A model generated the notes under the pieces. That model did no database searches. It had not been told where the DNA came from and was given only the letters and a program-made list of their open reading frames with translations. A stretch of DNA of 64,000 nucleotides, taken from NCBI RefSeq assembly GCF_013003965.1, contig NZ_CP053069.1, positions 2,821,419 through 2,885,418 of the forward strand. The letters run 5' to 3'. Positions 49,779 to 62,497 of the stretch are shown here, piece by piece. The stretch is from Usitatibacter rugosus (lineage in GTDB: Bacteria; Pseudomonadota; Gammaproteobacteria; Burkholderiales; Usitatibacteraceae). A program made the translations under genes and the position numbers. Positions within the stretch are counted from its first letter, which is position 1. The number at the start of each line of letters is the position of its first letter.

Positions 49779-50864
49779 ATGTCGAAAACCGTCATCCCGC
49801 TCGTGCAAGTGGCCCGCCATGCCAGCGCGCCGCCGCTCAGCGCGCCCGTCACCCCTGGCCGCCTCGCCGACACGCTCGCGCGGCCGCTGCACGACCTGCG
49901 CATCTCGGTCACGGACCGCTGCAACTTCCGCTGCGTCTACTGCATGCCGAAGGAAGTGTTCGACGCGAACTACGCCTTCCTTCCCCAGGGAGAGCTGCTC
50001 ACGTTCGAGGAGATCGTGCGGTTGGCGCGCATCTTCCGCGGCCATGGCATGGAGAAGATCCGCCTCACGGGTGGCGAGCCGCTGCTGCGCCACGGCATCG
50101 AGAAGCTCGTGGGAATGCTCTCGGAGGCCTTCCCCGACGTCGACCTCACGCTCACCACCAACGGCTCGGCGTTGAAGGCCAAGGCCGCTGCGCTGAAGGC
50201 CGCGGGATTGAAGCGTGTCACCGTGAGCCTCGATTCGCTGGACGAGGCGACCTTCCGGAAGATGAACGACGTGGACTTTCCCGTCGCCCGCGTGCTCGAG
50301 GCGATCGACGTCGCCGCGAGCGCCGGACTCGGGCCGATCAAGGTGAACATGGTGGTGAAGCGTGGCGTGAACGATCCCGAGATCGTGGACATGGCGCGCC
50401 GTTTTCGCGGCACGGGCCACATCGTTCGCTTCATCGAGTTCATGGACGTGGGCTCCACGAATCACTGGCGGATGGATGACGTCATTCCCTCCTCCGAGGT
50501 GATCCGCCGCATCCATGCCGTGTTCCCGCTGGAGCCGGTGGATGCGAACTACACCGGCGAGGTCGCCGAGCGCTGGCGCTACAAGGATGGCCAGGGCGAG
50601 ATCGGCGTGATCTCCTCGGTCACCGAGGCTTTCTGTTCGACCTGCACGCGCGCCCGGCTCTCCACCGACGGCGCGCTCTACACCTGCCTCTTCGCGCAGA
50701 AGGGCTTCGACCTGAAGACGCTGCTGCGCGGCGGTGCGAGCGATGCCGCCATCTCGGAGGCGGTCGCCGCGGTGTGGCAGCGGCGCGAGGACCGCTACTC
50801 GCAGGTCCGCACCGAGGAAACGGCGAAGGCCCGCAAGGTCGAGATGTCGTACATCGGCGGCTAG
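49779..50864 (+). CDS. moaA: GTP 3',8-cyclase (molybdenum cofactor biosynthesis)
   Basis: Radical SAM enzyme that begins molybdopterin synthesis from GTP with MoaC. The 361 residues have [10 protein letters not shown] (CxxxCxxC, SAM cluster), TGGEPLLR, and the second cluster [18 protein letters not shown] near the C terminus. The body is complete. It starts the plus-strand moaA-fdhD-mobA-2H-moeA-hotdog unit divergent from DUF3305. No Shine-Dalgarno precedes the ATG, and a TATAAT box lies only 8 bp upstream, so a leaderless start is possible. moaC, moaD and moaE are not in the window. Confidence 0.96.
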
Positions 50865-51692
50865 ATGGCCTACAAACCGCAGCTTTCGCACGCGGCCCGC
50901 CCCGCCACGTACACGGTCGACGCGCGTGACGAGACCGGCGCCATCGTCCCGACGCCCATCGCCGGCGAGCATCCCCTCACGCTCTACGTCGACAAGAAGG
51001 AAGTCATCACGATGATGACCCTGGGCGCGGCCCCCGAGGCGCTGGCGCTCGGGTTCCTGCGCAACCAGCGGCTCGTGAAGTCGATCGAGGAGATCGTCGC
51101 CGTCAACGTCGACTGGGAAGTGAACGCGGTGGCCATCACCACCAGGAACGGCCTCGAAGACCTCGATGCCCGCACCGAGAAGCGCACCGCGACCACCGGC
51201 TGCGGCCAGGGCACCGTGTTCGGCGACCTGATGGAAGACATCGACTCGATCAAGCTCACGGACGACGTGAAGCTCGAGGAGGAAACACTCTTCGCGTTGC
51301 TGAACGCCGTGCGCCTGCACGAATCCATCTACAAGCAAGCGGGCGCCGTGCACGGCTGTGCGCTCGCGAAGGGTAGCGAGATCCTCACGTTCGTCGAAGA
51401 CGTCGGCCGCCACAACGCCGTCGACGCGATCGCGGGATGGATGTGGCTGGAGGGCGTGACCGGCGAGGACAAGGTGTTTTATACGACCGGCCGCCTCACT
51501 TCCGAGATGGTGATCAAGGCAGCCCAGATGGGCATTCCCTTCCTCGTCTCGCGCTCGGGCCTCACGAAGATGGGCCACGAGATCGCGGAGAAGGTCGGCA
51601 TCACCATGATCGGGCGCGCGGTGAACAAGCATTACCTGCTTTTCACCGGGGAGCATCGCTTCGTGAAGAAGGCCGCTCTCGCGCATGGTTGA
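50865..51692 (+). CDS. fdhD: formate dehydrogenase accessory sulfurtransferase
   Basis: FdhD transfers sulfur from IscS to the molybdenum cofactor of formate dehydrogenase, needed for activity. The 275 residues align with the family: TPIAGEHPLTLYVDKKEV, LGFLRNQRLV, AGAVHGCALA and the C-terminal VEDVGRHNAVDAIAG. The family CxxC is CGQG here (Cys113), so only one of the two cysteines is present. It abuts moaA with no gap and overlaps mobA by 8 bp. Confidence 0.93.
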   Translation: MAYKPQLSHAARPATYTVDARDETGAIVPTPIAGEHPLTLYVDKKEVITMMTLGAAPEALALGFLRNQRLVKSIEEIVAVNVDWEVNAVAITTRNGLEDLDARTEKRTATTGCGQGTVFGDLMEDIDSIKLTDDVKLEEETLFALLNAVRLHESIYKQAGAVHGCALAKGSEILTFVEDVGRHNAVDAIAGWMWLEGVTGEDKVFYTTGRLTSEMVIKAAQMGIPFLVSRSGLTKMGHEIAEKVGITMIGRAVNKHYLLFTGEHRFVKKAALAHG

Positions 51693-52269
51693 GGTCACGG
51701 GCCTCGTCCTCGCCGGCGGCCAGGGCAGCCGCATGGGCGGCGTCGACAAGGGGCTGCAGCCGTTTCGCGGCAAGCCGATGGTCGAGCACGTGCTGGAGCG
51801 CCTCGTTCCCCAGGTCGACGAAGTGCTCGTCAACGCGAACCGCAACCCGGAGGCCTACGAGCGCTTCGGGCACCGCGTGATTGCCGACGAGATCCCCGGC
51901 TTCGCCGGTCCGCTCGCGGGGTTCGAACGCGGCCTCGCCCACGCGAAGGGCTCCCTCGTCGTCACCGTGCCGTGCGATTCGCCTTTCCTGCCGCGCGATC
52001 TCGTCGAGCGCCTGCGGGGCGCCCTCGAGGGGCGCAATGCCGAGCTCGCCGTCGCGAAGACCGGCGACCAGGCCCATCCCGTCTTCTGCCTCATGCGCCG
52101 GGAGGTCCACGCGTCGCTCACCGCATTCCTCGCCTCGGGCCAGCGCAAGATCGACCGCTGGTACGCGAGCATCCGCTTCATCGAGGTCGCGTTCGACGAC
52201 GAGCCCGACGCCTTCCTCAACATCAACACGCGCGAAGAGCTCTCGAGCCTCGAGCCTCCCAAGGGCTAG
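51685..52269 (+). CDS. mobA: molybdenum cofactor guanylyltransferase
   Basis: Attaches GMP to molybdopterin to make the MGD cofactor of FdhA. The 194 residues start VTGLVLAGGQGSRMGGVDKGL, the nucleotidyltransferase signature, with LVPQVDEVLVNANRNPEAYE and VTVPCDSPFLPRDL (metal Asp). Overlap with fdhD is 8 bp, so translation is coupled. Length fits the family. The next gene starts 2 bp after the stop. Confidence 0.93.
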   Translation: MVEVTGLVLAGGQGSRMGGVDKGLQPFRGKPMVEHVLERLVPQVDEVLVNANRNPEAYERFGHRVIADEIPGFAGPLAGFERGLAHAKGSLVVTVPCDSPFLPRDLVERLRGALEGRNAELAVAKTGDQAHPVFCLMRREVHASLTAFLASGQRKIDRWYASIRFIEVAFDDEPDAFLNINTREELSSLEPPKG

Positions 52270-52271
52270 CG

Positions 52272-52823
52272 TTGGGCCGAGCGCTGCGTGCGCCCCGGCC
52301 GCCGCTGCCCCGCTTCGCGGTCGCGTGGTTTCCCGCATTCGAAGACCTGGAGAGCATCGAGTCGTATCGGCGGCGCCACGACCCGCAGGCCACGACGATC
52401 GCCGCGCATCTCACGCTCGTCTTCCCCTTCCCCACCGCGCTCACGGCCTTGCAAGTGGAGACGCACGTGCGCAAGGTCGCCTCCGGTTGGCCGCCGATCG
52501 CGGTCACGTTCCGGCCCGTGCGCGGGGTCGGCAACGAGTTCGTGATGCTGATGGCCACGCGCGGCGCCGCCGCGGTCATGCAATTCCACGACACCCTCTA
52601 TACGCGCTCGATCCGCCCGCATCTTCGCAAGGACATCCCCTACGAGCCCCACATCACGATCGCCCGCCAGCCCGAGCCGGAGCGCTACGAGGCGGCGCTC
52701 GCGGAGGCCGAGGCCGAATTCCACGGCGAGTTCAGCAGCGTGCTCCGCGAAGTGACGCTGCTTTCGTGGCGTGCGGACGGTAAAATCGAACGTCTGAACA
52801 CCCTGCCTCTGGATTCCCGCTGA
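52272..52823 (+). CDS. 2H phosphoesterase (2'-5' RNA ligase-like)
   Basis: A 183-residue cytoplasmic protein with two HxT motifs, HLTLVFP and HITIAR, about 90 residues apart, the signature of the 2H (LigT/2'-5' RNA ligase) superfamily. The only codon fitting the frame near mobA is TTG at 52272, 2 bp after its stop, so the true start is not certain. It sits between mobA and moeA and is not a known molybdenum cofactor gene. It may be a cyclic phosphodiesterase acting on RNA or nucleotides. Confidence 0.75.
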   Translation: MGRALRAPRPPLPRFAVAWFPAFEDLESIESYRRRHDPQATTIAAHLTLVFPFPTALTALQVETHVRKVASGWPPIAVTFRPVRGVGNEFVMLMATRGAAAVMQFHDTLYTRSIRPHLRKDIPYEPHITIARQPEPERYEAALAEAEAEFHGEFSSVLREVTLLSWRADGKIERLNTLPLDSR

Positions 52824-52824
52824 C

Positions 52825-54093
52825 ATGGCCACGCTCACGATTGCCCAGGCTTCCTGCGCCGACGACTACGACCCCAACTCGATGCCCGTCGCGAAGGCGC
52901 GCGAGTTCATCTTCCGGTTCCTCGAGCCCGTGCGCGCCACCGTGCGCGTGCCGATCCGCGACGCGCTGGGCCGCGTGCTCGCCGAGGAGGTGATCTCGCC
53001 TGTCGACGTGCCCTCGCATCGCAACTCCGCGATGGACGGCTGGGCGGTGCGCGGCGCGGACCTCGCGGCCACGGGCGATACCACGCTGACCGAGATCGGA
53101 GCCTCGTTCGCGGGCCGTCCCTTCAAAGGCACGCTCGGCGCCGGACAATGCGTGCGCATCATGACGGGCGGCGTCGTGCCCGAGGGCGCGGATACGGTCG
53201 TGATGCAGGAGCGCGCGAAAGCCGAAGGCACGAAGGTCGCGATGGCCGCGGGCCAGAAGACCGGGCAGAACGTGCGCGAGGCCGGCGAGGATCTCAAGCG
53301 CGGCTCGGTGGCGCTCGCGAAGGGCCGCGTGATCCGCCCGTCGGAGCTGGGGCTCATCGCCTCCCTCGGCATCGGCGAGATCGCCGTCTACCGGAAGCTG
53401 CGCGTCGCGTTCTTCTCGACCGGCGACGAGCTGAAGGGCATCGGCACGACGCTCGGCGAAGGCGAGATCTACGACTCCAACCGCTACACGCTCTACGGAA
53501 TGCTCACGCGCCTGGGCTGCGAGGTGCTGGATCTCGGCGTCGTCCGCGACGACCCCGCGTTGATCGAGCGCGCGTTCCAGGAAGCGGCCGCGAGCGCCGA
53601 CGTCGTGATCACCAGCGGCGGCGTCTCGGTGGGCGAGGCGGACTTCGTGAAGGCCATGCTCGCCAAGCTGGGCGAGGTCGTCTTCTGGAAGATCGCGATG
53701 AAGCCGGGCCGCCCGCTCGCCTACGGAAAGATCGGCAGCGCGCACTTCTTCGGCCTGCCCGGCAACCCCGTCTCGGTGATGGCCACTTTCTACCAGTTCG
53801 TGCGCGAGGCAATGCTGATCCTCATGGGCGCGAACCCGGTCGATCCCGTGCCGTCCTTCAAGGCCGTGTGCACGTTGAAACTGAAGAAGGCTCCCGGACG
53901 TACTGAATTCCAGCGGGGCATCCTCACGCGTGGCGCCGACGGCAGCTGGACGGTGCGACCCACGGGCGAGCAGGGCTCCGGAATCCTGAAATCGATGAGC
54001 GATGCCAACTGTTTCATCATCCTCGGCGACGACGTGGGCAACGTCGAAGCCGGATCGACCGTCGACGTCCAGCTGCTGGAGGGCGTCGTTTGA
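52825..54093 (+). CDS. moeA: molybdopterin molybdenumtransferase
   Basis: Inserts molybdate into adenylylated molybdopterin. The 422 residues have SAMDGWAVR, VRIMTGGVVPEGADTVVMQE, STGDELKGIG, the molybdopterin-binding TSGGVSVGEADFV and GLPGNPVSVMATF of MoeA/MogA-type domains, and a C-terminal domain IV. It starts 1 bp after the 2H gene stop, and its stop overlaps the hotdog gene as TTGA. Complete and typical. Confidence 0.95.
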   Translation: MATLTIAQASCADDYDPNSMPVAKAREFIFRFLEPVRATVRVPIRDALGRVLAEEVISPVDVPSHRNSAMDGWAVRGADLAATGDTTLTEIGASFAGRPFKGTLGAGQCVRIMTGGVVPEGADTVVMQERAKAEGTKVAMAAGQKTGQNVREAGEDLKRGSVALAKGRVIRPSELGLIASLGIGEIAVYRKLRVAFFSTGDELKGIGTTLGEGEIYDSNRYTLYGMLTRLGCEVLDLGVVRDDPALIERAFQEAAASADVVITSGGVSVGEADFVKAMLAKLGEVVFWKIAMKPGRPLAYGKIGSAHFFGLPGNPVSVMATFYQFVREAMLILMGANPVDPVPSFKAVCTLKLKKAPGRTEFQRGILTRGADGSWTVRPTGEQGSGILKSMSDANCFIILGDDVGNVEAGSTVDVQLLEGVV

Positions 54094-54652: not shown

Positions 54653-57600
54653 ATGCAGAAGGCCCCGCGCACCCCCGCCGTCCATCTCGGTCGGCTCCTC
54701 CGGCTCGTCACCCCGGGCTTCGCCTTCGCGCTGGCCCTGGGCGCTGCCCTCCCCGCCGCCGCCGTGCCCCCCGCCACGCCGAACTGGGACGCCCAGCTCT
54801 GCGCCAACTGCCACGGACTGAACGGCGCCCGCGTCAATGCGGCAGGCGCCTCAACGGTCATCGTCCGGGCGAACGACGCGACGCCCACGGGACATGGAAT
54901 GGGCCTCTCCGCGGGCCAGCTCGCGGCCGTGGGCGCGATCGCCACCGAGCTCAACACCTACTTCCAGCACCCCGAGGTGCTGGGACCGTTCGTCCAGTCG
55001 CGGTCGGTGGCCTTTGGAGACACCACCAACGCCATCCTCATCGACAACCTGGTCAACGACGGCGGCGCCCCGGGGGGCGCCGTCATCCTCACGACCAAGG
55101 CCGGAACCCTCGCGCCCTCGCATGGCACCCTCACCACGGGCACGCCCAGCAGCTTCAACATCAACTACTCGCACCGGGCTTCCGACAACACATGCGCCTC
55201 CGATGCCTTCGACATCCAGGGCACGGGACGCGCGGATACGTCGAATCGCCGGGTCAACATCACCGTCACCGCTCCCTCGTTCTCGGCCAACGCGGCGAAC
55301 ATCGGGCCGATTGCTTATTCCACTTCGCAGCAGACCTTCAACATCGGAGGTTCCATCGCAGTCGGCGGCGGCGGCACGCCGACGGGCATCTCGCTGGGCG
55401 CCGTGACCGGCGTCGGCACGCTCGTCACAACCGGAACCAGCTCGGTGCGCTACACCGCCACCGGCAACACTTACTCGGGCACCGTCAGCGCGACGTATAC
55501 CGCGACGGGCCCGACCGCCTGTGGCCTCTCCGATTCGGCAACGGTGACGATCACCGTGAGCCAGCCGGCGAATCCCACGGCCAACTCCTTCACCGCACCC
55601 GCGATCCCCGCATCCGCCGGCAGCGTGAGCAACATCAGTGCCCTGGCCCAGTACGCGGGCTTCACGCGCACGTCGCCCCTTTCGATCGTGACCCAGCCGC
55701 CTCCGGGCGAAGGCACCGTGACAGTCCTGGACGCCACCACGTTCCAGTACACGGCGAGCGGCTTCTCCGGCACGACGTCGTTCACCTACCAGGTCCTCGG
55801 CCCGACGGGAAGCACTGCCGCCTCGACCATCCGCACCATCACGCTCAATCCCACCGATGCCCCGGTCGCGGGCAACGGCACATCGGCGGCGACGCCGTTC
55901 AACACGTTCATCGACGTGGATGTCTCGTCGTTCATCGCCGGCTCCTTCACGAGCGTCGCGGTCGCCGGAGCGGCGACCAACGGCACGGCCGTCTTCCAGG
56001 CCGGCAACGTGATCCGCTTCACGCCGACCGCTGGCTTCTTCGGCACGGGCACCTTCCAGTTCACGGCCACCGGCTCGGGCGGTCCTTCGCCCACGCTGGG
56101 CACCATCTCGGTCCCCGTCAATCCCCCGGCTCCGACGGCCGCCGCCACGACGGCCAACGTGGCGTACAACACCGCCACGCCCATCGACGTCGCGACGTTG
56201 ATCGCGCCGTCCACGATCCTCGTGCCGACCACCGTGACGACGCAGAACGCCACGAACGGCACCGTCGGTGTCGTCGGCACCGTCGTCACGTTCACGCCGA
56301 CCGCCGGATACATCGGCGCGGCAAGCTTCCAATACCGCGCCACCAACGCCACCGGCCAGTCGGCGTTCGCGACCGTGACCCTCACGGTGCAGCCGCCGGC
56401 GGCCCCCACCGCGACCGCCATCGACGTGAACGTCTCGGCGACGCTGCCGACGCCGATCGACGTCTCGGCACTGATTACGAGCGTCGTCTCGAGCCTCACG
56501 ATCAGCACCCAGGCCACGAGCGGCACTGCCAGCGTGACTTCGCCCACGGTGATCACCTACGCGCCGGGCGCCAACTTCGTGGTGTCGGACACGTTCTTCT
56601 ACCAGGCGGTCGGCCCCGGCGGCACGTCGGCCCCGGCGCGCATCCGCGTCTTCTACAGCAACGCGCCGATCACGCCGGATGTCACGATCACCGTGCCGTT
56701 CAACACGCTGGTCGACGTCGACCTCGCCTCGCGCATCACCGGCACGTACAGCGGGACGATCAACTTCCCGCAGGTCCCCGCGAATGGCGAGCTCATCGTT
56801 CGCGGCAGCGTGATCAGCTACCGTCCGAATGCGAACTTCACCGGTTCCGACACCTTCACCTACATGGTGACCGGCACCGGCGGCCCCTCGCGCGCCGGCA
56901 CCGTGCGCATCACGGTGAACCCGCAGATCGCCCAGACGACGGGCGGCATGGTCACCACGTCGTTCAACACGCCGACGCAGATCGACCTCACGCGCTTCGT
57001 GACCGGCATCACCACCGGATACACGATCACGGTCGCGCCGGAGCACGGCAGCCTCACCGTGTCGGGCAACATCGCCACCTACACCCCCGCGCCTGGCTAC
57101 TTCGGCCCGGACCAGTTCACGTTCGTCGCGCGCAACGGCGCCGGCACCTCGCCTCCGGCAACCGTCACGATCACCGTCGGGTCCCTGAGGCCGGTGGCCA
57201 ACCCGGCCTCCCTGGTCGTCGACCTGAACTCGTCGCGCTCGATCGACACGGCGTCGCTCATCTCCGGTTCCGGCGTCACGGGCGTCACCGTCACGCGCAA
57301 GCCCGCCCACGGCACGATCGAAGTGAACGGCACCACGTTCACGTACACGCCGAACCACAACTTCTTCGGCAGCGACTCGTTCCAGTACGTCGCGTTCGGC
57401 AACCTCGGCTCGTCGACGCCGGCCACGATCAGCATCACGGTCACGGGCCGCCCCGACCCGCGCGACGATCCGGATGTCCGCGGACTCGTCGATGCGCAGT
57501 CCCAGGTGCCCTCGCGATTCACGCGCGCGCAGGTGTCGAACTTCCAGCGCCGCATGGAAACCCTCCACCGCGGCCCGGACTCGGCCTTCCCCGAGAAGCC

Positions 57601-59494
57601 GGTGAAGCCCGAAGCGGCTCCGGCCGGCGGCGCGACCGCCCCCACCAGCAGCGCTCCGGCTCCCGCGGGCGCACCCACCTCGCTCGTCCCGAGCGCGGAC
57701 GGCAGTGCTTCGCCGAGCGCCGGCGCGACGATTCCGGGCATGAGCCCGCTCGTGAGCTCGCTCATCAGCCTCGCCGCCTCGCAGACCGTCGGGCTCAACG
57801 GCGCCACCGAGATCCGCAGCGGCCTGAGCGTCTGGATCGCGGGCCTCGCGACCTTCGGCGAGCTGGACAGCGAAGGCGGCCGCAGCGGCTCGCGCTTCAG
57901 CACCGACGGCATGAGCGCGGGCATCGACAAGCGCCTCGCCGACAACCTCGTGGTCGGCCTGGGCGGCGGCTACGCGCGCGATCGCACCGGCGTGGGCAGC
58001 AACGGCACCAACAACAAGTCGCGCGGCTCGTCGTTCGCCCTCTACGGCAGCTTCCAGCCCTCGGCGCGGACCTACCTCGACATGATGGTGGGCCTGGGCA
58101 CGATCGACATGGACAGCCAGCGCTACGTGACCGAGCTCGGCCAGTTCGCGACCGCCACGCGCAAGGTGGACCAGGTGTTCGGCTCCCTCGCCGGCGGCTA
58201 CGAATGGCGCCAGGACGGCATCCTCGTCTCGCCGTACGGCCGCCTGGACTTCGCGCAGGACAAGTTCAAGACCGCGACCGAAACGGGCGCCGACCAGTAC
58301 AACCTCGTCTTCAACGGCCAGACGCAGAAGAACTCCGCGGGCGCCGTCGGCCTGCGAGCCGAGTCGCAGCACGAGATGGACTACGGCCGCGTCATCCCGC
58401 GCCTGCGCGTCGAGTATCGCCGCGAGTTCCAGGACGACAAGACCACGGTGCTCAACTACGCCGACCTCTTCGGGGGACCGGAGTACTCGGTCTCGAGCAA
58501 GGGCACCAGCCGCAACTCGGTGCTGCTCGGCATCGGCTCCGACTTCCTCGTCTCCGGCGGCCTCAAGCTCGGGTTCGACTACACGGTCGAGCGCAACTCC
58601 GGCTCGAAGAACGTACAGTCGGTGCGCCTGGTCGCCGTGCAGGATCTGGACTTCAAGGACCTGCCGCCGTTCCGCTTCACGTCCTCGTCCCTGGCGCGCC
58701 CCATCTCCGTCGATTTCGGCGCGAGCTACGACGACAACGTGAGCCGCGGCCGCCTCGACAGCGAGAAGCGCTCCGACAGCCTCTTCAGCCTCGGCGTCGG
58801 CCAGGAATACGTGGTCCCGATCGGCACCAACTTCCGCCTGGTCGCCACGCCGCTCGTCACCGGCGAGAAGTTCCGCCGCTGGGCCGGCCTGGGCCGCTTC
58901 TCCGGCGGCGCGTCGGGCGAGGTCCAGTACCGCACCTCGGGCGCCTTCGACGCCACGACCTTCGCCATCAAGGGCAGCGCGATCTACGACCAGTACGAGT
59001 CGAGCCTGCGTACCGGCGGGCGCTACTTCCTCGGCGTGAACGCGCGGCGCTCGATCACCGACAAGATCGACCTCTTCGCCGAAGCCGGCGGCAACCGCCG
59101 CGAGGGCAAGAGCGAGGTGTTCCAGCTTCGCGACTGGGTGGCCAAGGCGAACCTCGACTACTCGCTGGGCCGCAACGGGCTGGTGTACGTGTCGGGCGAA
59201 TACCGCAAGGGCGACACCTTCGCCTCGGGCCTGCCTTCGCTCACCAACGCCGCGATCGCCGACGTGTTCGTGATCGACGACGCGTTCGAGAACCAGCTCG
59301 TGGCCTACCGCCTCGATGCGCGCACCGTGCTCGGCACCGTCGGCTACAACCGGCCGCTGGGCCCGCGCGACTCGCTCGACTTCTCGTATCGCCGCGTGCA
59401 GACCGATCCGTCGCACAAGCCCAGCTTCGACGCCGGCGGCCCGCTGAAATACATCGATAACCAGTATTCCATCGTGTACCTGCTCCGCTTCTAG
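54653..59494 (+). CDS. exported heme-c / Ig-repeat / double beta-barrel autotransporter-like protein
   Basis: A 1613-residue protein. After a signal peptide (about 1-38, ending AAA) come a class I cytochrome c-like mini-domain with CANCH at 50-54, a candidate distal Met83 and a C-terminal-type helix SAGQLAAVGAIATELNTYF (86-104). Residues 105-303 are beta-rich with a Cys pair. Seven tandem Ig-like (Big_9/cadherin-like) repeats of 86-95 residues run from about 304 to 931 with starts near 304, 399, 490, 580, 670, 756 and 843, each ending in a PTAGFFGTGTFQF-like motif. After a Pro/Ala linker comes an autotransporter-type barrel (about 1033-1340), then a second barrel-like region (1345-1613) ending in LLRF, an outer-membrane C-terminal signature. 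The start was chosen over an upstream TTG for its ribosome site. Confidence 0.82.
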   Translation: MQKAPRTPAVHLGRLLRLVTPGFAFALALGAALPAAAVPPATPNWDAQLCANCHGLNGARVNAAGASTVIVRANDATPTGHGMGLSAGQLAAVGAIATELNTYFQHPEVLGPFVQSRSVAFGDTTNAILIDNLVNDGGAPGGAVILTTKAGTLAPSHGTLTTGTPSSFNINYSHRASDNTCASDAFDIQGTGRADTSNRRVNITVTAPSFSANAANIGPIAYSTSQQTFNIGGSIAVGGGGTPTGISLGAVTGVGTLVTTGTSSVRYTATGNTYSGTVSATYTATGPTACGLSDSATVTITVSQPANPTANSFTAPAIPASAGSVSNISALAQYAGFTRTSPLSIVTQPPPGEGTVTVLDATTFQYTASGFSGTTSFTYQVLGPTGSTAASTIRTITLNPTDAPVAGNGTSAATPFNTFIDVDVSSFIAGSFTSVAVAGAATNGTAVFQAGNVIRFTPTAGFFGTGTFQFTATGSGGPSPTLGTISVPVNPPAPTAAATTANVAYNTATPIDVATLIAPSTILVPTTVTTQNATNGTVGVVGTVVTFTPTAGYIGAASFQYRATNATGQSAFATVTLTVQPPAAPTATAIDVNVSATLPTPIDVSALITSVVSSLTISTQATSGTASVTSPTVITYAPGANFVVSDTFFYQAVGPGGTSAPARIRVFYSNAPITPDVTITVPFNTLVDVDLASRITGTYSGTINFPQVPANGELIVRGSVISYRPNANFTGSDTFTYMVTGTGGPSRAGTVRITVNPQIAQTTGGMVTTSFNTPTQIDLTRFVTGITTGYTITVAPEHGSLTVSGNIATYTPAPGYFGPDQFTFVARNGAGTSPPATVTITVGSLRPVANPASLVVDLNSSRSIDTASLISGSGVTGVTVTRKPAHGTIEVNGTTFTYTPNHNFFGSDSFQYVAFGNLGSSTPATISITVTGRPDPRDDPDVRGLVDAQSQVPSRFTRAQVSNFQRRMETLHRGPDSAFPEKPVKPEAAPAGGATAPTSSAPAPAGAPTSLVPSADGSASPSAGATIPGMSPLVSSLISLAASQTVGLNGATEIRSGLSVWIAGLATFGELDSEGGRSGSRFSTDGMSAGIDKRLADNLVVGLGGGYARDRTGVGSNGTNNKSRGSSFALYGSFQPSARTYLDMMVGLGTIDMDSQRYVTELGQFATATRKVDQVFGSLAGGYEWRQDGILVSPYGRLDFAQDKFKTATETGADQYNLVFNGQTQKNSAGAVGLRAESQHEMDYGRVIPRLRVEYRREFQDDKTTVLNYADLFGGPEYSVSSKGTSRNSVLLGIGSDFLVSGGLKLGFDYTVERNSGSKNVQSVRLVAVQDLDFKDLPPFRFTSSSLARPISVDFGASYDDNVSRGRLDSEKRSDSLFSLGVGQEYVVPIGTNFRLVATPLVTGEKFRRWAGLGRFSGGASGEVQYRTSGAFDATTFAIKGSAIYDQYESSLRTGGRYFLGVNARRSITDKIDLFAEAGGNRREGKSEVFQLRDWVAKANLDYSLGRNGLVYVSGEYRKGDTFASGLPSLTNAAIADVFVIDDAFENQLVAYRLDARTVLGTVGYNRPLGPRDSLDFSYRRVQTDPSHKPSFDAGGPLKYIDNQYSIVYLLRF

Positions 59495-59505
59495 GGGATG
59501 ACCGC

Positions 59506-61449
59506 ATGACCGCAAGACACCTTCCCGCTCGCGCCGCGGCGCTCCTCGCCGCAGTGCTCGTCGCCTCGTGCGGCGGCGGCGGCAGCCCGGGCGACACGCC
59601 GACCCAGTTCACCCCGCCCCCCGTGGCGCCGGTGTCGGGTCCCGACAAGTTCCTGATGTTCCCGAACCCGCAGGTGCAGGACTCCGGCGTGGTCCAGACC
59701 ACGGTGGACGACTATGCCAACGCCTACTACCGCGCGATCGATCCCAACAACGAGCGCGACACGCTCGCCAAGTGGAAGGTGAAGAACGGCTTCGAGACCG
59801 GCACGGGGCAGGAGATCACGGTCGTCTTCGGCGACCAGCGCGACCTGGGCTACGGCCGGCGCATGAATGCGCGCCGCAACCCGGACGGCACGCTCGCCTT
59901 CTACGTCGAGAACTACCTCGTGCGCACCGGCGCGGACTACGCGTACTCGAACCTGAACCTCGAGGCGGCGATCGTGCGCGACCCGAGCCGCTTCATCGGC
60001 GTGAACGCGATCGAGTTCAGCCCCGGTCCCAACGGCGGCGTCGCCTTCGCCAAGTGGTACAACTTCAGCTCCACCACGGGCATCCGCGCCACGCAGGTCG
60101 ACCTCGATGGCCGCGGCACCAAGGCCATGCCCGGCCCCTGCATCACCTGCCACGGCGGCCGCGGCGACGCGCTCACGCCGCCGGATGCCACCGGCAAGCC
60201 GCGCTTCAACCTCGTGCGCTTCTCCGAATCGAAGAGCCGTGGCGACGTCGAAGGCCACATGCATCCGTTCGAACCCGATGTGTTCGGCTTCAGCGACCGT
60301 GCGGGCTTCACGCGCTCCGAGCAGGAAGCGGCGATCAAGATCATCAACAAGTGGATCCTGTGCACGTATCCGCTGCCCACGGCTTCCACGGCGCCGGAAG
60401 ACCAGTGCCGCCGCCCGGCCAGCCCGAGCGAATGGCAGGGCACCGCGGCCTCGCTCATCAAGGCCTACTACGGCGGCGACGGCCTGCCCGACGCGACGTT
60501 CAAGGACGAATACGTGCCCACGGGCTGGGTCACCGCGGGCCAGTCCACGCTCTACGAGAACGTGGTCAAGCCCTCCTGCCGCACCTGCCACATCATGCGC
60601 GGCAGCGGCGGCAACTCGGACCTCGACTTCGACTCGTACGAGAAATTCCGCGCGTTCAACGACCGCGTGAAGGTCCACGTGCAGGAGCGCGGCAACATGC
60701 CGCTCGCGAAGATCGTCTACGACGCGTTCTACGTCGCAGGCGCTCCCGGCCCGAATTCCGTGGCCACGTTCCTCGCCGCCCAGGGCCATGCGTCGCGCGA
60801 CGCGGCCGGTGCGCCGCTGCTGCCCGGCCGCCCGATCGCGCGCCTGGGACCCACGCGCGTGGTCGCGCCCGGCTCGACGACGCTCATCTCCAGCGACAGC
60901 GTCTTCGCGAGCACCTATCAATGGTCGGTCGTGTCGGGCAACGCGACGCTCGCCAACCCGACGACGGCCTCGCCCACGTTCACGGCGGCGGCACCCGGCA
61001 CCTATGTCGTGCGCCTGGTGATCACGGGCAACAACCTCACCAGCGCCCCGGCCCAGCAAACGATCGTCGTGCAGGAAGGCCTTCCCGTCGCGCCGGCCAA
61101 CATCCGGTTCTCGCACATCAAGGAGATCCTGCAGACGGCGGGGTGCACCAACTGCCACGCCCCCGATGGGCAGCTGCCGCGGCCGCCGCTCTTCTACTCG
61201 AACATCGACCGCAACGACGACGGCATCGTGGGCGACGCGACCGACGACCTCTGGTTCTACGCCGAGGTCCGCAGCCGCGTGAACTTCACCGAGCCCAGCG
61301 CGAGCGCGCTGCTGCGCAAGCCCTCGGGCAACCACCACGGCGGGCTGCTCCAGCCCGGCTTCGCGGTGGACGCCGAAGCCGGCAGCGGGGCGCGGGCGCG
61401 GTACGAGACGTTCTATAACTGGATCGCGAACGGCGCGCCTTACCAGTAG
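59506..61449 (+). CDS. triheme cytochrome c lipoprotein with PKD-like domain
   Basis: A 647-residue exported lipoprotein: lipobox LAAVLVASC (Cys at about 22), then a Gly-rich stretch. Three CxxCH heme sites are CITCH (212-216), CRTCH (358-362) and CTNCH (547-551). Residues about 430-520 form a PKD/Ig-like domain. The N-terminal third (FPNPQVQDSGVVQTTVDDY) is of unknown fold. The ATG is 11 bp after the previous stop with an AGGGGA ribosome site, so both are one operon. Surface or outer-membrane electron transfer is the likely role; the partner is the upstream heme-repeat protein. Confidence 0.85.
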   Translation: MTARHLPARAAALLAAVLVASCGGGGSPGDTPTQFTPPPVAPVSGPDKFLMFPNPQVQDSGVVQTTVDDYANAYYRAIDPNNERDTLAKWKVKNGFETGTGQEITVVFGDQRDLGYGRRMNARRNPDGTLAFYVENYLVRTGADYAYSNLNLEAAIVRDPSRFIGVNAIEFSPGPNGGVAFAKWYNFSSTTGIRATQVDLDGRGTKAMPGPCITCHGGRGDALTPPDATGKPRFNLVRFSESKSRGDVEGHMHPFEPDVFGFSDRAGFTRSEQEAAIKIINKWILCTYPLPTASTAPEDQCRRPASPSEWQGTAASLIKAYYGGDGLPDATFKDEYVPTGWVTAGQSTLYENVVKPSCRTCHIMRGSGGNSDLDFDSYEKFRAFNDRVKVHVQERGNMPLAKIVYDAFYVAGAPGPNSVATFLAAQGHASRDAAGAPLLPGRPIARLGPTRVVAPGSTTLISSDSVFASTYQWSVVSGNATLANPTTASPTFTAAAPGTYVVRLVITGNNLTSAPAQQTIVVQEGLPVAPANIRFSHIKEILQTAGCTNCHAPDGQLPRPPLFYSNIDRNDDGIVGDATDDLWFYAEVRSRVNFTEPSASALLRKPSGNHHGGLLQPGFAVDAEAGSGARARYETFYNWIANGAPYQ

Positions 61450-61470
61450 GCGCTGCGCGACCCGGGAGAA

Positions 61471-61495
61471 GCCCGCTTCGGCGGGCTTTTTCTTT
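61471..61495 (+). terminator. terminator after the triheme lipoprotein gene
   Basis: GCCCGC-TTCG-GCGGGC stem with a UUCG tetraloop and TTTTTCTTT tail, 21 bp after the stop codon. It is matched, in mirror image, by the FecR-side terminator at 61727-61750. Confidence 0.92.
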
Positions 61496-61532
61496 GCGGG
61501 CTGGCGCCCGGACCTGGACCTCAAACCCCTAG

Positions 61533-61693
61533 AGCTTTTCACCACGGAGGCACGGAGAACACGGAGGGCCACGGAGAAACACGTGAATGAATCTCAAGTA
61601 ACGCGATCCTGATCGCTACACGGTGACCGCAACTGCGATTTCAAGATTCCTCCGTGGCCCTCCGTGTTCTCCGTGCCTCCGTGGTGAAAAGCT
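61533..61693. repeat. large inverted repeat with CACGGAG units between convergent genes
   Basis: Arms of 44 bp are perfectly complementary (61533-61576 with 61650-61693) around a 73-nt unique centre; pairing continues outward with one indel through CCCCTAGA. Each arm holds four copies of CACGGAG (61543, 61551, 61560, 61570 in the left arm) at 8-10 bp steps. It lies between two terminators, so it may be little transcribed. No ORF or transposase is inside. The layout parallels the repeat at 34036-34316. Confidence 0.94.
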
Positions 61694-61726
61694 TAGGGGG
61701 TTGGGGTCTAACAAGAAACAAGAGCG

Positions 61727-61771: not shown

Positions 61772-62497
61772 CTAGTACCCGCGCCGCGGCCCCATGTAGT
61801 CGCTCTTCGGGAAGACGAAAGGCGGCTGTCGCCCCACCAGCGTCTCGATCAGCGCCAGCTCCTGGTCCGTGTGGTTCACGAACGGCGCGGGACGGATGTT
61901 CTTGCCCTTCTGCTCGTTCGCGAGGATGTAGAGCGGACGGTCGTGGTGCTTGGCGGCCACCGTTTCCTTGCTCTCCGGATCGTTGAGGGCAGAGACGTCG
62001 GCCACGCCGTAGCAGGTGCAGAAATAGGTCTGGTCGGGTTCGGCTTCCATGTAGACGCCCGTGCCGCGGATGCCGATGGAGGCGATGCGCGTCGTGAGCG
62101 ACACCGGGCGGCGGCTCGGGAACACCGAGAGCAGCTTGCCGGTAAGGAGCTTGATGCCCGTGACCACCAGGGAATCGGCGGGCGGAGCTTCCACCAGCAC
62201 GTTGCTGTCCGCGCGCAGGATGAAGGCGCTCTCGCCCACCGCGTAGACGACTTCGCTGTTCTTGCCCGTCTGGATGGTCGAGCCGGCGCCGATCTTCGAC
62301 TCCGTGGTGGCGGCCTGGCCGTTGATGAGGACCGTGCCGTTCACGCGGTAGACGGACTTGCCGGCGGGCAGCTTGGAAGGCGCACTGCCCAGGACTTGCG
62401 CGAGGGCCTCGATTCCCGCCCCCGAAAAAGCACCCATCGCCAGGGCCTGGATCAGCCAACGGCGCCGAGGATCTTCGGCTTCACCGAATCGCTTCAT
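61772..62497 (-). CDS. FecR-domain protein with twin-arginine-like leader
   Basis: A 241-residue protein. The N terminus PRRRWLIQALAMGAFSGAG resembles a Tat leader. A FecR domain (about 45-150) follows: GKSVYRVNGTVLINGQAA, TIQTGKNSEVVYAVGESAFILRA, and KLLSVFPSRRPVSLTTRIASIGIRGTGVYME. The tail has CTCYG and HHDRPLYI, a possible metal or disulfide site. It is not next to a FecI sigma factor or TonB receptor. It is convergent with the heme protein operon. It may be a periplasmic sensor or binding protein; function unknown. Confidence 0.85.
   Translation of the reverse strand: MKRFGEAEDPRRRWLIQALAMGAFSGAGIEALAQVLGSAPSKLPAGKSVYRVNGTVLINGQAATTESKIGAGSTIQTGKNSEVVYAVGESAFILRADSNVLVEAPPADSLVVTGIKLLTGKLLSVFPSRRPVSLTTRIASIGIRGTGVYMEAEPDQTYFCTCYGVADVSALNDPESKETVAAKHHDRPLYILANEQKGKNIRPAPFVNHTDQELALIETLVGRQPPFVFPKSDYMGPRRGY

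Follow-up and report, generated by a model that had tools for sequence, protein, structure and literature searches.

An Ig-repeat stalk with a heme motif, a small putative outer-membrane barrel and a triheme lipoprotein as candidate parts of a surface redox system in Usitatibacter rugosus

The fused gene and the lipoprotein gene

The DNA analyzed here, referred to as the window, is a stretch of 64,000 nucleotides from Usitatibacter rugosus, whose genome consists of one contig of 4.56 Mb. Two adjoining genes on its forward strand are the subject of this study. The open reading frame (ORF) at 54653-59494 encodes a protein of 1613 residues, hereafter the fused surface protein, and is followed after a gap of 11 bp by the gene for a triheme PKD lipoprotein of 647 residues (59506-61449, +). 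The GC fraction of third codon positions is 0.931 in the fused gene and 0.934 in the lipoprotein gene.

The fused surface protein begins with a signal peptide (residues 1-37; 54653-54763, +), recognized by eye from its hydrophobic core and AxA-type end, and continues with a mini cytochrome c-like domain (54773-54958, +, limits approximate). A CANCH motif occupies residues 50-54 (54800-54814), and the sole Met between 15 and 65 residues downstream is Met83 (54899-54901). The whole 1613-residue chain contains four Cys residues, and at least one CxxCH arose in 4 of 50,000 shuffles. The stalk (55274-57448, +, limits approximate) consists of tandem Ig-like repeats, with eight stretches matched by Big_9 of Pfam (4.1e-51) and eight by tand_rpt_95 of NCBIfam. 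A linker, partly rich in Pro and Ala (57449-57829, +), precedes the autotransporter beta-domain PF03797 (residues 1060-1311; 57830-58585, +), for which positions 1-255 of the 255 in the Pfam profile are covered at an E-value of 4.7e-45. A second barrel-like domain of family A2 follows (residues ~1338-1613; 58664-59491, +), and the chain ends with LLRF. A sequence-only reading of this DNA had described the same arrangement, and its signal peptide, CANCH with Met83 and two barrels are borne out; tandem Ig repeats are likewise present, but its count of seven gives way to the eight stretches found by Pfam.

The barrel nature of the second domain is judged from the sequence alone, namely from a C-terminal F, from a signal peptide recognized by eye in separately encoded relatives and from the weak matches that two of nine members give to Porin_4. 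The domain is about 280 residues long and shows 12 strands by eye. A script too rough to fix the strand number gave 13-14 peaks for it and 16 for the autotransporter control, for which 12 were expected.

The N-terminal segment was compared with known cytochromes. CANCH and Met83 supply the heme motif and the candidate distal Met expected of a class I cytochrome c. In all six stalk proteins of the cytochrome type, a Met lies 25-42 residues past the heme motif. A profile made from six mini-cytochrome sequences matched 55 sequences of the PDB at E-values of 10 or less, and 52 of them are named cytochromes or heme enzymes. The best match (E 6.9e-5) covers a short stretch only, and the matches are driven largely by the heme motif itself; eight cytochromes match the near-full profile at E-values of 0.028-4.5, and so does the non-heme protein UvrA at 0.39. 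These matches support a cytochrome fold at the stalk N-terminus without proving one.

The lipoprotein carries a lipobox with Cys22 (59569-59571), assigned by eye. Its three CxxCH motifs, also noted in the sequence-only reading, lie at residues 212, 358 and 547, and at least three such motifs appeared in 0 of 50,000 shuffles. The N-terminal diheme domain (59653-60795, +, limits approximate) holds CITCH (60139-60153) and CRTCH (60577-60591), 146 residues apart, and Met398 in a GNMP segment after the second motif is invariant in 10 sequences. A PKD-like domain (60823-61080, +, limits approximate; K319L-like_PKD of Pfam, residues 464-522) and a C-terminal heme domain (61093-61446, +) with CTNCH (61144-61158) and the segments KPSGNHH and WIxxGAP complete the protein. 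A terminator-like hairpin with a T run lies directly 3' of the gene (61469-61497, +). FoxE was considered as a relative of the C-terminal heme domain; with a whole-sequence E-value of 0.055 and an i-Evalue of 4.9 for the best stretch, the match was not used as evidence.

Stand-alone diheme relatives of the N-terminal domain are encoded at L044 (8642-9670), L045 (8469-9488), L046 (8254-9852) and L156 (7296-8624). The domain is found alone in proteins of about 340 residues and also occurs in other architectures. Pfam cytochrome matches of the A3 members among the stand-alone proteins, which were the ones scanned, are weak and mostly motif-sized. Divergent three-heme relatives of the lipoprotein are found at L157 (3331-7260), L158 (7369-9333) and L159 (5962-7923), one of them split by an insertion.

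The barrel, the heme motifs and the stalk in relatives

From searches in the order, the family and the class, 26 loci with a full-length lipoprotein were examined, the window included; full-length is defined as one A1 match of at least 378 bits over at least 557 of 648 positions. Matches to the PKD or the diheme part alone fall outside this definition, as do L157, L158 and L159, the L103 fragment in G312 and another, incomplete copy in G513. L033, which is the GR16-43 chromosome and the same as L035, was left out of the counts. No relatives were found in a plasmid collection.

The A2 barrel lies immediately upstream of the lipoprotein gene and on the same strand in 25 of the 26 loci. Where the start can be placed, the two genes overlap by 4 bases at one extreme and lie 28 bp apart at the other, and 11 bp is a frequent distance. 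In the remaining locus, L037, the last strands of the barrel alone are left behind a transposase gene (Y2_Tnp, 2.4e-39). In the class sample, the barrel is present in 21 of 368 genomes and in all eight genomes with a full-length lipoprotein, the own genome excluded (Fisher p 2.6e-11; two lipoprotein candidates were scored per genome, so that absence is not firm). When the split relative in G634 and the divergent three-heme relatives in G523 and G602 are added, none of which has a barrel nearby, the barrel accompanies 8 of 11 (p 3.9e-9).

L039-L043, five loci from more distant relatives, encode the second barrel on its own, as a protein of 311-323 residues whose signal peptide was recognized by eye; its gene immediately precedes that of the lipoprotein. 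That the barrel is fused in the window and separate elsewhere argues for a direct partnership. The window gene is thus best described as a fusion of two partners, a stalk protein and the second barrel. The double-barrel protein of the sequence-only reading holds for the window itself, but the second barrel, often a gene of its own in relatives, is to be taken as a partner that has been fused in. Eleven autotransporter-barrel fusions have a visible 3' side, and the lipoprotein follows in ten of them, the exception being L104. On the barrel tree the fused state requires one change, with weak support (46/27) and with ungrouped rows left out; on the lipoprotein tree it requires four, with L037 and L101, whose state is unknown, scored as unfused. 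A single origin of the fusion with later loss is likely but not proven. In L102, which belongs to the genus of the window, the barrel is unfused and the stalk gene is absent.

The barrel family extends beyond loci with the lipoprotein. On the barrel tree, loci without a lipoprotein group together (support 79/94), except for L123 and L104. An A2-type barrel lies beside a FecR-like gene in L112, L115, L116, L118, L120, L121, L123, L124 and L125, and no multiheme lipoprotein was recognized in the fetched flanks of these nine loci. Such FecR-adjoining barrels without a lipoprotein appear to be a second use of the family. In L119 (8927-11287) and L122 (5502-7868), a protein of 786-788 residues, which in L119 is of the dCache-HAMP-GGDEF-EAL type, is followed directly downstream by an A2-family barrel. 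The fusion of autotransporter barrel and second barrel in L104 (7956-10370) has a short passenger, and no lipoprotein match was found on its contig stretch; the same genome, G411, also holds a separate three-gene set, L105.

The heme motifs of the lipoprotein are strongly conserved. Site 1 is CxxCH in 26 of 26 loci and site 2 in 25, with L037 as the exception. Site 3 is kept in all 26, as CX2CH in 19, CX3CH in one and CX4CH in six. This conservation indicates selection on heme binding. The stalk motif was counted with L106 included, which belongs neither to the 26 loci nor to the 18 complete ones, its lipoprotein lying off the contig. The heme and four-heme tallies omit loci with cut N-termini (L036, L095, L096, L097, L099, L101 and L108) as well as L037, which is disrupted. 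A CX2-4CH motif is present in all 12 stalk proteins with a visible N-terminus (CX2CH in nine, CX4CH in two and CX3CH in one), or in 12 of 13 when L104 with its short, heme-less passenger is included, and it is kept although its carrier is cytochrome c-like in some proteins and a choice-of-anchor V domain in others. The sequence-only reading had proposed that an Ig stalk with a heme is paired with the triheme lipoprotein, and would have been refuted if homologues usually lacked the motif or the partner; the pairing recurs in relatives, with both elements retained in the numbers just given.

The total number of heme motifs is four in 15 of the 18 complete loci, distributed as one on the stalk and three on the lipoprotein in ten loci and as none and four in five. 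The latter are L039-L043, which have no stalk protein and in which the lipoprotein is longer and holds the fourth motif in an extra domain at its C-terminus. Because this fourth domain matches the third at 99.2% in hhalign, it looks like a duplicated domain. A transfer from the stalk was considered and is probably not the source; just 13 columns around the motif aligned with the mini cytochrome.

In the class sample, a separate stalk protein with a heme motif is encoded directly upstream of the barrel in L105, L106, L107, L109, L110, L117 and L155; in L108 the start of the stalk protein lies beyond the fetched stretch. All six separate stalk proteins scanned have tandem-95 matches, that of L105 being below the cut-off. 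Choice-of-anchor V is matched above the cut-off at the N-terminus of five of the six (L106, L107, L109, L110 and L117), and the N-terminus of L105 shows a cytochrome-like segment by eye. The C-termini have a hydrophobic stretch followed by basic residues and resemble GlyGly-CTERM tails by eye; the GlyGly-CTERM model was not among the NCBIfam matches of these six proteins. In the passages concerned with them, such tails are described as paired with the enzyme rhombosortase and as linked to type II secretion (PMC3237569), which is described as exporting folded proteins (PMC10128026). Rhombosortase is found above the cut-off in 9 of 9 searched genomes outside the order and in 0 of 6 inside it. 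Eight of these nine genomes carry a separate stalk gene, one of them, G411, in addition to the fusion L104, and none was seen in G513. The pattern matches a swap of export route and is suggestive only. The simplest reading of the sequences is that the heme-Ig stalk must reach the surface and that different lineages use different export routes.

The FecR-like gene and the surrounding sequence

A FecR-like protein with a start of the Tat (twin-arginine translocation) type, marked by an RR pair, is encoded on the opposite strand at 61772-62497 (-), with CTCYG at 62006-62020; its Pfam FecR match (E 0.0029) is below the cut-off. The A4 family of 18 sequences shows the RR Tat-type start, and its Cys160, Cys162, His185 and His209 are invariant; the CxC/His/His set looks like a metal site. 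Of the 26 lipoprotein loci, 18 have a FecR-like gene in their fetched flanks. Among class-sample genomes with a strong FecR match, defined by a self-set line of at least 310 bits and with the own genome excluded, 15 of 16 have the barrel; this co-occurrence is biased, as the A4 rows were picked beside A2 barrels, and of the six strong-FecR genomes outside A4 five have it. The FecR-like Tat-type protein counts as a further partner in the set. The idea that it is specific to the system was dropped, since paralogues without a recognized barrel neighbor exist (L195-L200), one of them in the own genome. In L097, a CHASE2-type cyclase-like gene (1-2049, by eye) adjoins the FecR-like gene.

The interval that separates the lipoprotein and FecR-like genes contains a 56-nt inverted repeat that is 93% complementary (61524-61702). 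A 74-base query taken from it matched the own genome 44 times, in many cases as two paired arms with about 100 bp between them, which identifies it as a member of a dispersed palindromic repeat family. Upstream of the fused gene, molybdenum-cofactor-like genes resembling MoaA, FdhD, MobA and MoeA by eye occupy 49779-54093, and the order of the MoaA-, FdhD- and MoeA-like genes is the same in GR16-43. CxxCH motifs in flanking genes of the relatives include non-heme cases, such as the nrdR-like genes of L098 and L103 (by eye).

A proposed surface redox complex, its rivals and known systems

The locus on balance probably encodes the outer parts of a four-heme redox complex at the outer membrane or cell surface. 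The sequence establishes which parts the locus has and how they are ordered, the presence of the heme motifs and of the fusion, and the conservation of the pairing. The complex, whose parts are encoded as three separate proteins elsewhere, would comprise a surface Ig-repeat stalk with one c-type heme near its N-terminus, a small outer-membrane beta-barrel and a lipoprotein carrying three c-type hemes. The stalk and the barrel are fused in the lineage of the window, where the stalk would reach the surface through the autotransporter barrel; outside the order, a GlyGly-CTERM-like tail would bring it to the surface in place of that barrel. The second barrel would be the dedicated partner of the lipoprotein, serving as its anchor, its exporter or an electron path. 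If stalk and lipoprotein are alternative seats of the fourth heme, the lipoprotein hemes, too, probably lie on or near the outer face. With hemes attached to the motifs and the lipoprotein at the surface, electrons would pass between the hemes, and the four of them would jointly exchange electrons with something extracellular. The FecR-like protein with its CxC/His/His set is a candidate periplasmic partner. Its recurrence in relatives makes the set look like a so far undescribed means of electron chemistry on the outside of the cell.

Several observations weigh against such a surface complex. No cytochrome family of Pfam matches the stalk N-terminus. AlphaFold models gave a mean pLDDT of 32.5 for the lipoprotein, with the PKD region alone being confident, and of 25.9 for the two barrels; the input alignments had two rows, from the window and L033, and are too shallow to bear on the folds. 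The passage of a folded heme domain through the autotransporter pore would be awkward and unusual. The CX3CH and CX4CH spacings were admitted to the motif counts after the data had been seen; L102 and L113 have three heme motifs and L155 has five, and the stalk protein is absent from 7 of the 18 complete loci (L039-L043, L102 and L113). The passenger of L104 lacks a heme motif, no A2 barrel lies near the divergent three-heme relatives L157, L158 and L159, and the rhombosortase split is confounded with phylogeny. A lineage of the barrel without any cytochrome adjoins FecR genes; together with the missing stalks and the heme-less L104, this means that the basic job of the barrel family may not be redox. 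Finally, a search for a periplasmic multiheme cytochrome among the picked ORFs in the window and in the module flanks found none; the picking favors GC-rich third positions, the flanks differ in length, and the search did not extend to the remainder of the genome.

The last point bears directly on another explanation, in which the locus encodes a new type of trans-outer-membrane conduit, with the triheme lipoprotein in or under the second barrel wiring the periplasm to the stalk heme. The barrel-lipoprotein pairing and the fusion are in line with it. In the passages of PMC6148476 that define conduits, a periplasmic multiheme cytochrome, an outer-membrane barrel and a redox lipoprotein are named, and candidates for the latter two of the three are recognizable here by sequence. 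However, the first was not found in the loci, and the MtrB/PioB family PF11854 has no match in the own genome, the L117 barrel matching it below the cut-off (15.7 versus 23 bits). A barrel of about 280 residues with 12 strands by eye seems too narrow and could hardly hold a heme chain, neither of the two barrels looks large enough for an MtrA-like wire, and the seven stalkless loci also speak against a conduit. It is a doubtful explanation. Alternatively, the diheme domain of the lipoprotein might itself be catalytic, peroxidase- or oxidase-like, and be fed by the stalk heme and the C-terminal heme. Such an extracellular enzyme would agree with the occurrence of the domain alone and in other architectures and with the spacing of its CxxCH pair and the invariant Met after the second motif, but the match to CCP_MauG is no better than chance (E 0.23 in one of six members), and we consider the enzyme unlikely.

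The barrel lineage beside FecR genes also gives some room to a surface adhesin set with structural or sensory hemes, in which the Ig stalk adheres, the heme acts as an oxygen or redox switch, and the barrel and the FecR-like protein serve assembly or signaling. Ig and tandem-95 stalks, choice-of-anchor domains and the cyclase-like gene in L097 would suit this purpose as well. However, four heme motifs kept across changing spacing and changing carrier exceed what a structural role needs, so that an adhesin is improbable. The attachment of heme c takes place in the periplasm, and in classical autotransporters the N-terminus is the last part of the passenger to be exported. The N-terminal domain might thus fold with its heme in the periplasm and remain there, where the autotransporter barrel opens inward, an arrangement similar to that proposed for Cyc2, whose cytochrome is placed on the periplasmic side in the passages on its topology (PMC8406198). 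This is quite unlikely, because the corresponding protein of the relatives has a GlyGly-CTERM-like tail, of the kind linked to type II secretion, an exporter of folded proteins (PMC3237569, PMC10128026).

The surface redox complex can be extended to a more specific and rather tentative proposal, a new outer-membrane redox machine. In it, a mini cytochrome, displayed by an autotransporter on the tip of an Ig arm and wired to a surface triheme lipoprotein on a dedicated small barrel, would work with a Tat-exported, metal-binding FecR-like protein as periplasmic partner in place of a multiheme cytochrome. If so, the tiny size of the cytochrome would let a heme protein pass the autotransporter pore, whereas larger heme domains would take the type II route. 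If the proposed redox complex is real, an outer-membrane heme system would operate without the usual multiheme wire in genomes that, like the present one, lack an MtrB/PioB barrel. Barrel A2, the diheme-PKD lipoprotein and the FecR-like CxC protein provide marker families that can be searched for. The locus would also offer a natural test of whether an autotransporter can display a covalent heme domain, and the relatives a natural experiment on how a single surface cargo switches between export routes.

Porin-cytochrome conduits such as MtrCAB, OmbB-OmaB-OmcB and Ext have an outer-membrane barrel encoded beside a heme lipoprotein, as the present set appears to have. In contrast to them, the present loci did not reveal any periplasmic multiheme cytochrome, the small barrel belongs to another family, and a one-heme Ig stalk and a fused double barrel are present; the hemes are far fewer than in MtrCAB. 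Cyc2 is described in the corresponding passages as a monoheme domain on one 16-stranded porin (PMC8406198), and it likewise has one N-terminal CxxCH domain in the same chain as an outer-membrane barrel. That description sets it apart from the fused surface protein, in which Ig repeats intervene, two smaller barrels, the autotransporter barrel and the second one, end the chain, and a triheme lipoprotein is the partner. Among the literature matches listed, no description of an autotransporter-borne cytochrome or of the whole domain set was found, and in PMC3543383 the matching passages on autotransporters and on heme motifs are unrelated.

Type Va autotransporters have a signal peptide, a passenger and a PF03797 beta-domain in common with the fused surface protein. 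However, the beta-domain of the latter is internal, being followed by about 300 more residues, which make up another barrel-like domain from a different family, and its passenger consists of Ig repeats with a heme motif. There are known outer-membrane proteins that carry more than one barrel. Proteins of the choice-of-anchor V/GlyGly-CTERM type, which combine an N-terminal CxxCH domain with long repeats, occur in the matching operons of the relatives. Compared with them, the protein of the window carries an autotransporter barrel where they have their C-terminal tail, and the place of their choice-of-anchor V domain is taken by a segment that resembles cytochrome c.

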